Origin: Acidobacteriota bacterium
GTDB taxonomy: Bacteria; Acidobacteriota; Terriglobia; UBA7540
Reading direction: 5' to 3'
DNA length: 64,000 nt
Assembly (NCBI GenBank): GCA_902812415.1
Contig: CADDZJ010000005.1
Span: forward strand, 1 to 64,000
The notes beneath the pieces were generated by a model, which was not told the DNA's origin, did not search any database, and worked only from the letters and a program-made list of their open reading frames with translations. Made by a program: the position numbers and the translations under genes. This document shows positions 24,375 through 36,603 of this stretch, one piece after another. Within the stretch, counting starts at the first letter, position 1. Every line of letters starts with the position of its first letter.

Positions 24375-26675
24375 ATGACTGATAGAAAGTTCTTTCCCGC
24401 ATGGCTCCTGGCCATTGCTTTCTGCGCGATTCCCCTCTACGCAACGCATACAGAATTCTGGAGGACCAGCAGCTTCAAGGGCTTTTTGAAGGGGAATTTG
24501 CAAGGCGTTTCGGTGAGCATGGACGGCGAATTGACGCTGGCTCCCGAAACCCGCGCCATCTTCAATCCCGATGAGACGGTAGCGCTATCCGTGGTGGCAG
24601 GGCGAAACGGCAGCCTTTACATCGGGACAGGTCATCAAGGGAAAGTCTTTGAACTCGACTCGGATCGCCACGGGCGGCTGATTTTCCAGGCGCCGGAGCC
24701 GGAAATTCTGGCATTGGCCATCGGTCCGGATCATGCCCTCTATGTCGGCAGTTCCCCGGAAGGAAAGATCTATCGCGTCACCCCGCGGGGCAAGTCCTCC
24801 GTCTTTTACGACCCCAAGGTGAAATACATCTGGGCTCTGGCTTTTGATCCTGAAGGTCGCCTCTATGTAGGCACAGGAGACCGCGGCGAGATTTTGCAAG
24901 TGGATCGTGACGGCAAGGGGCGCGTCTTTTTCGCCAGCAATCAGACTCACATCATGTGCCTCACGTTTGACCGCTCTGGGAACCTGCTTGCCGGCAGCGA
25001 ACCCAACGGCCTGATCTACCGCATCAGCCCTCAGGGAAAGGCCTTTGTCCTCTATCAGGCCAATCTGCCCGAAATTCACGCCTTGGCGACGGATGCTCAG
25101 GGACGCATTTATGCGGCGGCTTTAGGGAACAACGTTCCGGGGGCAGTGCCCGGATACGTTCTTCCTTCCACATCGCCAACTCTCGTCTCTTCCCCTGCAA
25201 CCACCGTGACGGTGGTCGCCTCCGCCGGAAACATGGCTGACGATCCTGTCAAAACGCAGCAACCGCAGCAGCCACAGCAACCGCAACGGGCGCCTCAGAG
25301 GCCCGGCAGGACTCCCTCGGTGAATCCTAACGTCTCGGCCGGTGTGCAACCGTATCATCAGTATGCGTTAGGTCGCGGCGCGTTGATCGAAATCCTTCCC
25401 AACTATACGGCGCAGACGCTTTGGACCTCAAATAACGAGAGTATCTTCGGATTGGCCACCCGCGGCTCCGACGTTTTGTTCTCAACGGATGCCAATGGGC
25501 ATATTTTTGATCTGAAGCCGTCTCCCGACGGCCCCAAGCTGACGCTTCTCACCGAAACCCGCGAGTCCCTGCCCACGCGGATTCTGCCCGAAGGTTCCGA
25601 TTTGTTCGTTGCCACCAGCAATATCGCCAAGCTGATTCAAATCGGCACCACCACGGGAACCGAAGGCACTTACGAGTCTCAGGTCAAAGACGCCGGGTTC
25701 ATTTCGCACTGGGGTGAAATTTCGTGGCGCGCGGAAGTGCCCGCCCATTGTGGCCTTCAGTTTTATACGCGGTCCGGGAATTCGGCACGGCCGGATAACA
25801 CCTGGAGCGACTGGGCGGGGCCGTACACGAACCCTCCAGGAAGCGCCATCCAGAGCCCGCCTGCCCGATATGTGCAATGGAAGGCTGTCTTCCATGGTTT
25901 GGATGGGCAAAGCCCCAGCCTGGTCGAGGTCAGCCTGGCCTATTTAAATCAAAATCTTCCGCCTGAGATTCGCAATCTGACGATTACCGCTGGGAACGAA
26001 AGGACCAGTCTCTCAGGCATTCCCATTATCTCGTCAAACCCGGTGATGACCGTCACGCCTATCAGCACCGTAACAACTTCGGCCAACTCGCCGACGGTTT
26101 ACGACACGTCGGGAGGACAGGTAGTGAGCAAGCATCCCATTTATGTAAGCTGGCAGGCTGAAGACCCCAACCGCGACCAGATTACTTACTCCCTCTATAT
26201 CAAGTCGGCAGATGAGCAGCAGTGGCACCTGCTTAAAGGGAATTTGAGGGATACGAATTTCACGCTTGAGCCGGATTCTCTGGCGGACGGTGAATATCAA
26301 ATCCGGCTGGTGGCCTCCGATGAGGCATCCAATCCGCCGGATCGTGCGCTCAAAACCGAACTGGTCAGCGCGCCGTTCTGGGTGGATAACACCCCCCCGG
26401 TGATTCAGACAATCAGCCACCAGGTGGATGGCCGGACGGCTGTGATCCGCTTTCAAGCTTTGAGCAAAGTTTCCCCTCTTGAGAAAGCAGAGGTCTCCAC
26501 GGGCGAGGATCACTGGAAGGAAATTCTATCGGACGATGGGATTGTGGACTCCCAGCGCGAGACCTTTACGGTAAGGCTTCAGGGACTGGCGCCGGGCGAG
26601 CATGTCATCTCGCTGCGGGCTTACGATACAGCCGGGAATATTGGGATTGGCAAGGCTGTTATCGAGGTTCGATGA
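24375..26675 (+). CDS. Secreted beta-propeller protein with Ig-like C-terminal region
   Basis: Predicted exported protein, 766 aa, with signal peptide MTDRKFFPAWLLAIAFCAIP (cleaved near residue 24). Residues about 55-260 hold repeats of about 45 residues with pattern LYVGTGDRGEILQVDRDGKG, as in NHL/WD40-like propellers. A Gln/Pro-rich linker follows (about 295-315). The propeller then resumes. The C-terminal half has fibronectin/Ig-like beta strands (about 520-766), including the phrase DGEYQIRLVASDEASNPP. No catalytic motif is visible. A cell-surface binding or scaffolding role is likely; the ligand is unknown. It sits just upstream of an ECF sigma operon. Confidence 0.75.
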   Translation: MTDRKFFPAWLLAIAFCAIPLYATHTEFWRTSSFKGFLKGNLQGVSVSMDGELTLAPETRAIFNPDETVALSVVAGRNGSLYIGTGHQGKVFELDSDRHGRLIFQAPEPEILALAIGPDHALYVGSSPEGKIYRVTPRGKSSVFYDPKVKYIWALAFDPEGRLYVGTGDRGEILQVDRDGKGRVFFASNQTHIMCLTFDRSGNLLAGSEPNGLIYRISPQGKAFVLYQANLPEIHALATDAQGRIYAAALGNNVPGAVPGYVLPSTSPTLVSSPATTVTVVASAGNMADDPVKTQQPQQPQQPQRAPQRPGRTPSVNPNVSAGVQPYHQYALGRGALIEILPNYTAQTLWTSNNESIFGLATRGSDVLFSTDANGHIFDLKPSPDGPKLTLLTETRESLPTRILPEGSDLFVATSNIAKLIQIGTTTGTEGTYESQVKDAGFISHWGEISWRAEVPAHCGLQFYTRSGNSARPDNTWSDWAGPYTNPPGSAIQSPPARYVQWKAVFHGLDGQSPSLVEVSLAYLNQNLPPEIRNLTITAGNERTSLSGIPIISSNPVMTVTPISTVTTSANSPTVYDTSGGQVVSKHPIYVSWQAEDPNRDQITYSLYIKSADEQQWHLLKGNLRDTNFTLEPDSLADGEYQIRLVASDEASNPPDRALKTELVSAPFWVDNTPPVIQTISHQVDGRTAVIRFQALSKVSPLEKAEVSTGEDHWKEILSDDGIVDSQRETFTVRLQGLAPGEHVISLRAYDTAGNIGIGKAVIEVR

Positions 26676-34677: not shown

Positions 34678-36381
34678 TTAACAGGGGACAGCGTCCAGGG
34701 AAGGATTTTCGGAGGCGCTCACTGCTATCTCGCCAGCGAGAGCGGCCCGAAGTTCCTCATCCGCTGCGCGCGCGCAGAAGTTGCGGAAATTCTCGCCTTC
34801 TTCCCGTTCGCCCAGGTAGGCGTAGAGCAGGCGGGTGATGGCATCCGGCACTTCATCAGCCGGGCAGCGATAACCGATGTGGCGGGAAAACGCCTGGTGT
34901 TTTCCCACGGCCCCGCCCAGGCAGAAGTAATAGGCGTCCACCAGTTTCCCGTCAATTTTGATGCGCTTGCCTTCAAGTCCGATATCGGCGATCCAGTGCT
35001 GGCCGCAACTGTTGGGGCAGCCGGTGACGTCAATTTTCAGATGTTGATTGAAGCCAGGCATGCGCTTTTCCAGTTCTCCTACCAGCCAGCGCGTGAATCC
35101 CTTCGTTTCGGTAATCGCCAGCTTGCAGAACTCGGTGCCCGTGCAGGAGATGGCGCCGCGCCAGAAAGGCGATGCGGAAATGCGCAATTCTGCCGCCTCA
35201 AGCCCGTCCGCCAGAGGGTCCACATGATGCTTGGGCACGTTCACAATCAACAGGTTTTGCATGCCGGTGATTCGCGCCTCGCCGCTCCCATAGCGTTCGG
35301 CAAGATCAGCGGCGGCAGCCAGTTGCTGGGCCGTCACGCGCCCGCGCAACACCGCTATGCCCACGTAGAAGCGCCCAGGCTGCTTTTGCGGATAGATGCC
35401 CACATGGTCGCGGTAAACGTCTGAAGGCGGCTCTTCAGGTTCCGGCGGGTCCAGATGAAAACCCAGGCGCTCTTCGAGCCCTTGGAGGAAGCTTTCAGCC
35501 GTCCAGCCGTGGCGTAGAAAGAGATATTTCAAGCGCGCCCTTTCGCGGGCTTCGCGCAGGCAATCGGAATCGCGGAAAATTTCGGCAATGCCTTTAACCA
35601 CCGGCATCGCCTGGTCCCAGCGCACGAAAGCGGGTAATCGCACAGCAAAGTGCGGCTGCGAGGACAGCCCGCCGCCCACGCGCACGGAGAACCCCGTCTC
35701 CCACTGGCCGTTGAGTTTTCGCTTTTGGGCTGTCAGGCCAACGTCATTGATTTCCGGGTAAGAACACCAAACCGGGCAGCCCGTGATGCAGATCTTGAAC
35801 TTCCGAGGGAGATTGTAGAATTCCTCAGCTCCCACCAGCATCTTCTGCGCTTCAAAGACCAGCGGCGAAGCGTCACAAATTTCAGCCGCGTCGACACCGG
35901 CCAAGGGGCAGCCAGTAATGTTGCGAGTATCGTCGCCGCAGGCAGCCATCGTCGTCAGCCCGCATTGCCAGAGGGTGCGGAAAATCTCCGGCAGCGACTC
36001 AATCGTAACCCAATGAAGCTGAATATTCTGCCGCACCGTCAGATCAGCAAACCCTCGCGCATGCTTCTCGGCAATTCGGGCTACGGTTCGCAGCTGATCG
36101 CTGCGCAAAAACCCGTTAGGAATCCGAATGCGCACCATGAAGTAAGGCGCGGCCTTGCCTTCTCCGCCTTTGCCGCCCAGAACGCCTGCTCCATCCCCCT
36201 GAGTATAAACACCCCACCAGCGGAAGTAAGTCTTCAGCCATTCCTCGGGGATGGAACCAAACCCTTGCTTTGCAAATTCCTCGATTTCAGCAAAGCATTC
36301 CCAGGGATTCTTTGCTTTCTTAAGCCGCTCTGCCCTTTGCGCCTTGGTTTCCTTGAGGACGCCTGTATTTCCCTGCTCCAC
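34678..36381 (-). CDS. Siroheme-[4Fe-4S] ferredoxin sulfite or nitrite reductase
   Basis: Six-electron reductase of 567 aa from the GTG start. It has the siroheme/Fe-S family organisation: duplicated halves, DLTVRQNIQLHWV near the N-terminus, and NITGCPLAGVD. The cluster ligands are C-x5-C in SCTGTEFCKLA (about 410) and C-x3-C in TGCPNSCGQH (about 455). Family members reduce sulfite or nitrite; sequence alone cannot separate them. The cysteine-rich leader upstream favours sulfite assimilation. GTG 36381, nine bases after GGGAGG, is preferred. An upstream ATG at 36414 is rejected because it lies inside the terminator hairpin. Confidence 0.9.
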   Translation of the reverse strand: MEQGNTGVLKETKAQRAERLKKAKNPWECFAEIEEFAKQGFGSIPEEWLKTYFRWWGVYTQGDGAGVLGGKGGEGKAAPYFMVRIRIPNGFLRSDQLRTVARIAEKHARGFADLTVRQNIQLHWVTIESLPEIFRTLWQCGLTTMAACGDDTRNITGCPLAGVDAAEICDASPLVFEAQKMLVGAEEFYNLPRKFKICITGCPVWCSYPEINDVGLTAQKRKLNGQWETGFSVRVGGGLSSQPHFAVRLPAFVRWDQAMPVVKGIAEIFRDSDCLREARERARLKYLFLRHGWTAESFLQGLEERLGFHLDPPEPEEPPSDVYRDHVGIYPQKQPGRFYVGIAVLRGRVTAQQLAAAADLAERYGSGEARITGMQNLLIVNVPKHHVDPLADGLEAAELRISASPFWRGAISCTGTEFCKLAITETKGFTRWLVGELEKRMPGFNQHLKIDVTGCPNSCGQHWIADIGLEGKRIKIDGKLVDAYYFCLGGAVGKHQAFSRHIGYRCPADEVPDAITRLLYAYLGEREEGENFRNFCARAADEELRAALAGEIAVSASENPSLDAVPC

Positions 36382-36397
36382 TCTGACGAACCTCCCG

Positions 36398-36443
36398 AAA
36401 AATAAAAAACCCATCGCCGGGTTTTGTTTCTCCCGACGATGGG
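36398..36443 (-). terminator. Intrinsic terminator between leader ORF and reductase (attenuator terminator)
   Basis: On the minus strand, a 12-bp stem (CCCATCGTCGGG with CCCGGCGATGGG, one G-U pair) closes a 10-base AGAAACAAAA loop. The tract TTTTTTATTTTT follows directly. The reductase start codon and its GGGAGG site lie only 17 bases beyond the T-tract. A terminator here, inside the leader of a single gene and not after one, indicates conditional read-through. Confidence 0.85.
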
Positions 36444-36483
36444 CCTAACCTACAGGATCACGAATGGATAATCGCGTCTGGCG

Positions 36484-36567
36484 TCAACCCACGGCCGGGG
36501 AGATGGGACAACAACAAGAGCAACAACAGCCCTGGTGCTCCATAGATTGAATGCGGGTATTAGCCAT
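36484..36567 (-). CDS. Cysteine-rich leader peptide (27 codons)
   Basis: A short ORF upstream of the siroheme reductase, on the same strand, reading MANTRIQSMEHQG, then CCCSCCC (codons 14-20, six Cys within seven codons), then PISPAVG and a TGA stop. An internal in-frame ATG at 36543 would give 19 codons. The first ATG (36567) lies six bases after a -10-like AAAATA, so it may be translated from a leaderless mRNA. Stalling at the cysteine codons during cysteine shortage would be the sensing step. The peptide itself probably has no function. It is too short to appear in ordinary gene calls. Confidence 0.72.
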   Translation of the reverse strand: MANTRIQSMEHQGCCCSCCCPISPAVG

Positions 36568-36573
36568 CCTCTT

Positions 36574-36603
36574 TATTTTCCTGATTTCGCGGGTTTCTGT
36601 CAA
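36574..36603 (-). promoter_or_regulatory. Candidate promoter of the reductase leader
   Basis: On the minus strand TTGACA (36603-36598) is followed by an 18-base spacer and AAAATA (36579-36574). The predicted start coincides with the first base of the leader ORF's ATG at 36567, which would give a leaderless transcript. The -10 box is a weak match. A second -10-like TAATAC at 36562-36557 is an alternative, giving a short leader before ATG 36543. Confidence 0.45.

Follow-up and report, generated by a model that had tools for sequence, protein, structure and literature searches.

The DNA upstream of a siroheme reductase gene of an Acidobacteriota bacterium very probably encodes a ribosome-mediated, trp-type transcription attenuator that reads the supply of cysteinyl-tRNA, a conclusion reached without expression data. 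The element lies on the minus strand of the 64,000-nucleotide stretch of contig CADDZJ010000005.1 analysed here (the window). A Cys-leader transcription attenuator had been proposed at this place by an earlier reading of the letters alone (the sequence-only reading), and the proposal is well supported, because a Cys run, a terminator and an antiterminator exclusive with it are conserved and sulfur-assimilation genes lie downstream in relatives. These elements, together with the mutually exclusive 2:3 and 3:4 pairings and the position of the promoter, were established from sequence and comparison; that the leader is translated, that ribosomes stall in it and that read-through depends on cysteine is inferred, in the absence of transcript, ribosome-profiling or reporter data.

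The leader ORF and its cysteine codons

The leader ORF (27 codons, 36484..36567, minus strand, translated as MANTRIQSMEHQGCCCSCCCPISPAVG and then a stop) was defined from the sequence and from homologous leaders. Its putative regulatory Cys codons 14-20 (TGT TGT TGC TCT TGT TGT TGT) occupy positions 36508..36528 of the minus strand, and all elements of the sequence-only description, a short minus-strand ORF at 36484-36567 with six Cys in seven codons, were found in place. Our chance estimate showed that the leader is the single site in the window with six Cys codons of seven, and 20 shuffled windows gave only one five-of-seven site in total; the leader Cys run is not a product of chance. The pattern TGY3-N3-TGY3 has two sites in the entire 4.8 Mb genome, the leader and one other on contig C51, which was rejected as a leader, as the opposite strand would read poly-Gln there. 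A further stretch with five TGY of seven, interspersed with GGN (TGCGGTTGCTGTGGCTGCTGC), was seen at 25276-25285 of the minus strand.

The codon TGT accounts for 5/6 of the leader Cys codons, against TGC for 23/30 of those in six window genes (Fisher p = 0.010). The homologous Cys runs (n = 59; 234 TGT and 83 TGC) also favour TGT (Fisher p about 6e-8 for all leaders versus the window genes), and slower decoding or avoidance of structure may be behind this preference. Since both codons are used in the runs, it is the amino acid and not a DNA word that is kept.

The reductase gene

The gene downstream of the leader (34678..36381, minus strand) was assigned by homology and motif to a SirA/NirA-type siroheme reductase of 567 aa with a GTG start and an LPRKFK motif. 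The Lys of RKxK marks sulfite-type enzymes, and nitrite reductases have RKWN. Comparison of the motif showed LPRKFK in the window reductase, LPRKYK in M. tuberculosis NirA (1zj8, E 2e-96), its closest solved relative, and LPRKWN in the plant-type nitrite reductase 3b0l. The siroheme reductase recognised in the sequence-only reading could be specified by structure match and LPRKFK as a SirA/NirA-type sulfite reductase; the scores of the NCBIfam models on this protein were all under their cut-offs. The GTG at 36381 also has, as had been claimed, a Shine-Dalgarno site of its own (GGGAGG, 36391..36396, minus strand, read from the sequence), which lies outside the terminator. In relatives, the genes after the reductase are CysH, ATP sulfurylase, siroheme synthase and tetrapyrrole methylase, so we place the reductase in the context of sulfate assimilation. 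A HAD hydrolase gene follows the reductase in the window itself and in its closest relatives.

Conservation of the leader and its promoter

Eighty reductase loci were fetched for comparison, and 60 acidobacterial loci, all with upstream DNA, and 17 from Rokubacteria/Methylomirabilota were counted. The sequence-only reading had proposed searching relatives for a Cys-rich ORF and a terminator before the reductase, and this search was positive at 56/60 acidobacterial loci and at 0/17 of those from Rokubacteria/Methylomirabilota. Among the four acidobacterial exceptions, one has an assembly gap at this place (L067) and another has a leader with four Cys and a weaker hairpin (L023).

A -35-like hexamer, TTGACA (36598..36603, minus strand), was identified from the sequence and from a promoter scan of 58 homologous leaders, and is followed after 17 nt by a -10-like hexamer, GAAAAT (36575..36580, minus strand), which is a weak match and ends 7 nt before the leader ATG. 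A sigma-70-like promoter with a TTGAC-type -35 and an in-frame start 6-12 nt past the -10 was found at 43/58 leaders versus 0.32 in shuffles. The transcript is thus predicted to start, probably, at or next to the leader ATG. This promoter position would leave a 5' UTR of about 0-5 nt, too short to hold a Shine-Dalgarno site; the ORF is probably leaderless or almost leaderless, no start having been mapped.

The terminator and the putative antiterminator

Folds and the alignment delimit two arms on the minus strand: region 3 (GCCCATCGTCGGG, 36432..36444), which is the 5' arm of the terminator and would also be the 3' strand of the antiterminator, and region 4 (CCCGGCGATGGG, 36410..36421), the 3' arm of the terminator. 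A U-tract, TTTTTTATTTTT (36398..36409, minus strand), follows in the sequence. The arms of this hairpin (36410-36444) fold at -22.4 kcal/mol, and the strong intrinsic terminator placed after the leader at 36398-36443 by the sequence-only reading was recovered as hairpin and U-tract at 36398-36444. On a MAFFT alignment of 46 loci, 91% of the cells of the 3:4 helix were paired, with 18 double changes (0/500 shuffles), and by this measure the helix is conserved with strong covariation.

Region 2 (CCCCGGCCGTGGGTT, 36486..36500, minus strand) lies at the 3' end of the leader ORF and copies the terminator 3' arm imperfectly; it is the putative 5' strand of the antiterminator, as indicated by folds, by the alignment and by shuffles of the window (p = 0.006 with mononucleotide and p = 0.017 with dinucleotide shuffles). 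The 2:3 pairing would join the final leader codons to the terminator 5' arm and enclose the leader stop codon; the spacer (36445..36485, minus strand) would form the inner part of the hairpin, according to folds and to a count of the inner helix on homologues. As isolated hairpins in the window, 2:3 and 3:4 have energies of -30.0 and -22.4 kcal/mol, respectively.

The window region 2, CCCCGGCCGTGGG, pairs with CCCATCGTCGGG, and in most relatives region 2 contains CTGGCG, which codes for a conserved SGAG-type tail and pairs with CGCCAG. The 2:3 pairing thus tracks the change of the arm sequence, from CCCGGC with GTCGGG in the window to CTGGCG with CGCCAG elsewhere. Region 2 also matches the arm before other genes (GGCGGTGGGCT with AGCCCACCGCC, L154) and in another family (CAGGGCAGCAGGTTT with AACCCGCTGTCCTC, L194). 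In the alignment of 46 sequences, 85% of the cells of the 2:3 helices were paired, versus 27-51% when the helices were slid (1/500 shuffles), and per-locus shuffles gave a median p of 0.064 over 59 loci. The shuffle controls for the pairings were not corrected for the relatedness of the loci, and the figures are indicative only. RNAalifold on alignment A2 returned only the outer five 2:3 pairs with almost no covariation. The reasons are that the main group hardly varies in this outer helix and that the sequences of the window's group sit one or two columns out of register.

The sequence-only reading had suggested that CCCATC, a copy of the 5' arm, could compete for the 3' arm. The copy exists (36502-36507), but its pairing is not conserved: 5'-arm 6-mers recur in 3/59 leader tails, against 32/59 for 3'-arm 6-mers, so the CCCATC pairing is probably incidental. 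On these counts, the copy of the 3' arm that would pair with the 5' arm is the better candidate for the antiterminator. A possible region 1 (ACCCGC, 36553..36558, minus strand) could pair with GTGGGT of region 2, but is weakly supported. The 1:2 pairing gave a median shuffle p of 0.13 per locus, with 16/59 below 0.05 and perfect copies in individual loci. The alignment gave no support to a fixed 1:2 helix in the CGCCAGA/TCTGGCG columns, and this helix was rejected.

Folding with a masked ribosome and the proposed mechanism

We modelled the switch by cutting the RNA before region 4 and masking a ribosome at set codons. The probability of 2:3 before region 4 was 0.89 when the ribosome was at Cys1 or Cys3, but fell to 0.11 at Cys6 and to 0.00 at the stop codon; a ribosome on the final Cys codon partly covers region 2, and 2:3 is then weak. 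Folding with and without a ribosome on the Cys codons, also put forward in the sequence-only reading, gave mutually exclusive 2:3 and 3:4 pairings. In the model, and in computation only, stalling would free the antiterminator, and a ribosome that has reached the stop codon would block it. For the full-length RNA at equilibrium, the terminator remained favoured when the ribosome was stalled (P(3:4) 0.80-0.99), and the switch must therefore be kinetic. RNA without any ribosome likewise folds into 2:3 ahead of region 4 synthesis, which means that the model does not account for the untranslated state.

In the mechanism that we propose, transcription would begin at or beside the leader ATG and a ribosome would load on the leaderless 5' end, an inference drawn from the promoter. 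With ample cysteine, this ribosome would pass the Cys codons to the stop codon and cover region 2 (36486-36500), the 3:4 terminator would form and the sulfite reductase would not be transcribed. Under a shortage of charged tRNA-Cys, the ribosome would stall in the Cys run and leave region 2 free to pair with region 3 (36432-36444) before region 4 exists, and transcription would enter the reductase gene.

Alternative explanations

Translational attenuation or coupling, with the leader ribosome gating the reductase start and the hairpin being no terminator in practice, would use the same polyCys, leaderless-type leader, and two papers describe the mycobacterial polyCys ORFs as translational attenuators (PMC13236596, PMC9031893). 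We nevertheless consider it improbable at this locus: a long U-tract follows the hairpin in nearly all loci, the distance from the hairpin to the reductase match ranges from 6 to 211 nt, the reductase Shine-Dalgarno site is outside the hairpin, and region 2 matches the terminator 5' arm and not a ribosome-binding site.

The composition of the leader peptide bears on a second possibility, a functional Cys-rich small protein for metal binding or redox sensing that is co-transcribed with the reductase, the terminator setting a fixed ratio. Cys clusters can bind metals, and a C-terminal SGAGRLLT is kept in many relatives. The codons of this C-terminus are, however, RNA region 2, which changes along with the terminator arm, and the N-terminus is not conserved, the number of Cys per run varies from 3 to 8 (usually 4-7) and the leader ORF has no NCBIfam family match, all of which makes a small protein very unlikely. 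An unknown small-molecule riboswitch or protein-binding RNA before the terminator, with the ORF incidental, could explain the conserved nucleotides around the leader stop codon, but hardly deserves credence, as synonymous changes preserve Cys in the run, Cys codons also stand before other sulfur genes in RNA of a different sequence, and the curated Rfam covariance models at gathering score matched only tRNA in the window, with no riboswitch or T-box.

Similar leaders before other genes

Leaders that would fit the ribosome-mediated transcription attenuator were sought in relatives and in the phylum with a covariance model and with a promoter-plus-Cys pattern. The searches recovered Cys-rich leaders with terminators ahead of a second reductase subfamily (with about 33% identity to the window reductase) and ahead of genes for a TauE/SafE permease, CysH, cysteine synthase B and a YeiH-type transporter. 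In three genomes of one family (G258, G297 and G337), the pattern count was 7-9 per genome versus 0-1 for the reversed control. The covariance-model search of the window's own genome found this copy only, and leaders of divergent sequence may have been missed. The covariance-model matches before MetY (L164) and the similar L165 were rejected as frames with only two or three scattered Cys, and most pattern matches from other families of the phylum fell in ordinary coding sequence.

At 10/24 of the other leaders, region 2 is complementary, in differing sequence, to the terminator arm of its own locus (p<0.05), and the 2:3 pairing was not significant at the YeiH, peroxiredoxin and encapsulin leaders. 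Some polyCys leaders have no terminator; together with the non-significant pairings, this means that not every leader need work alike.

Several further leaders were observed. A Cys-rich leader (e.g., MTFAGQTMCCARCMV...) and a terminator precede genes for rhodanese and a type 2A encapsulin (SrpI-like) at L148, L149, L151, L160, L163, L242 and L251, and cysteine-controlled sulfur storage is possible at the encapsulin leaders. Up to six consecutive Cys codons and a terminator precede 1-Cys peroxiredoxin genes (L158, L162, L240, L252), and a polyCys leader, a terminator and a matching region 2 (p = 0.010) precede a RimK-like ATP-grasp protein (L159 and L198, G128:C7). At L200, L205, L218, L247 and L249, polyCys leaders stand before genes for outer-membrane proteins, of the OMP_b-brl_4 kind or similar, that have a CarboxypepD_reg domain; the substrate of the OMP_b-brl_4 proteins is perhaps a sulfur compound. 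Paired polyCys leaders in opposite directions were seen in two genomes of one genus (L235 and L236, G297:C1:895194-895678; G337:C57:99077-99235), their promoters lying a few hundred bases or less apart. A short CCC-run leader without a convincing terminator precedes an FGE-sulfatase-domain protein (L248, G258:C7:382260-385100).

Relation to known attenuators and significance

In the E. coli trp and his attenuators, leader codons, a 2:3 antiterminator and a 3:4 terminator are combined, and the position of the ribosome decides between them. The acidobacterial leader differs in that Cys replaces Trp or His, the leader is predicted to start at or near the 5' end and the 1:2 pairing is not established. 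The mycobacterial ilvB1 attenuator resembles it in having uORF codons, a terminator and an antiterminator in a non-enteric bacterium, and differs by its branched-chain amino acid codons and its long leader of 166 nt (PMC13236596). The uORFC-8-2 motif before cysS in Rhodobacterales, for which sensing of cysteinyl-tRNA by transcription attenuation has been proposed, likewise has uORF Cys codons followed by an intrinsic terminator (PMC8632094). That motif, however, has two tandem Cys codons near positions 14-15 and is found in Alphaproteobacteria exclusively before cysS (PMC8632094), whereas the window leader has six Cys codons before a sulfite reductase gene, and its counterparts in Acidobacteriota also precede other sulfur genes.

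Leaderless polyCys short ORFs that respond to cysteine precede sulfur and cysteine genes in mycobacteria (PMC13236596, PMC9031893 and PMC9094748, citing Canestrari et al. 2020), and the mycobacterial cys operons showed no conserved terminator hairpin in their upstream regions (PMC1262725). The mycobacterial parallel drawn in the sequence-only reading holds for the run of Cys codons in a short ORF of leaderless type, as predicted here, before sulfur genes. It does not extend to the mechanism: the mycobacterial systems are described as translational (PMC13236596), they lack conserved terminators (PMC1262725), and the acidobacterial leaders, in a different phylum, have a conserved intrinsic terminator and antiterminator.

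Our literature search, which did not cover most subscription papers, found no description of a Cys-codon attenuator in Acidobacteriota, in agreement with the earlier expectation of a new occurrence. Cys-codon attenuation itself was already known; a sulfur regulon of this kind in Acidobacteriota appears to be undescribed. Leaders of this length escape routine gene calling, and those tested are covered by no NCBIfam or Rfam model.

The presence of similar switches before many sulfur genes suggests that cysteine shortage is sensed by ribosome stalling in this phylum. A broader proposition, which we consider as apt to fail as to hold, is that Cys-codon attenuation with leaderless leaders, up to about nine per genome, is a main sulfur-regulatory system of Acidobacteriota, that it evolved independently of the mycobacterial one and in combination with terminators, and that it controls sulfate assimilation, cysteine synthesis, transport, encapsulin-based sulfur storage and peroxiredoxin. 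A cyanobacterial relative of the type 2A encapsulin is induced by sulfate starvation (PMC8049743), and this encapsulin is here linked to a possible cysteine sensor. Our results suggest that leaderless polyCys leaders exist outside Actinobacteria, coupled there to terminators, and so that cysteine stalling has been put to use convergently. For the family of leaders before sulfite reductase and other sulfur genes in Acidobacteriota, one of the commonest soil phyla, the proposed attenuator would supply a specific signal, cysteinyl-tRNA, and a mechanism.
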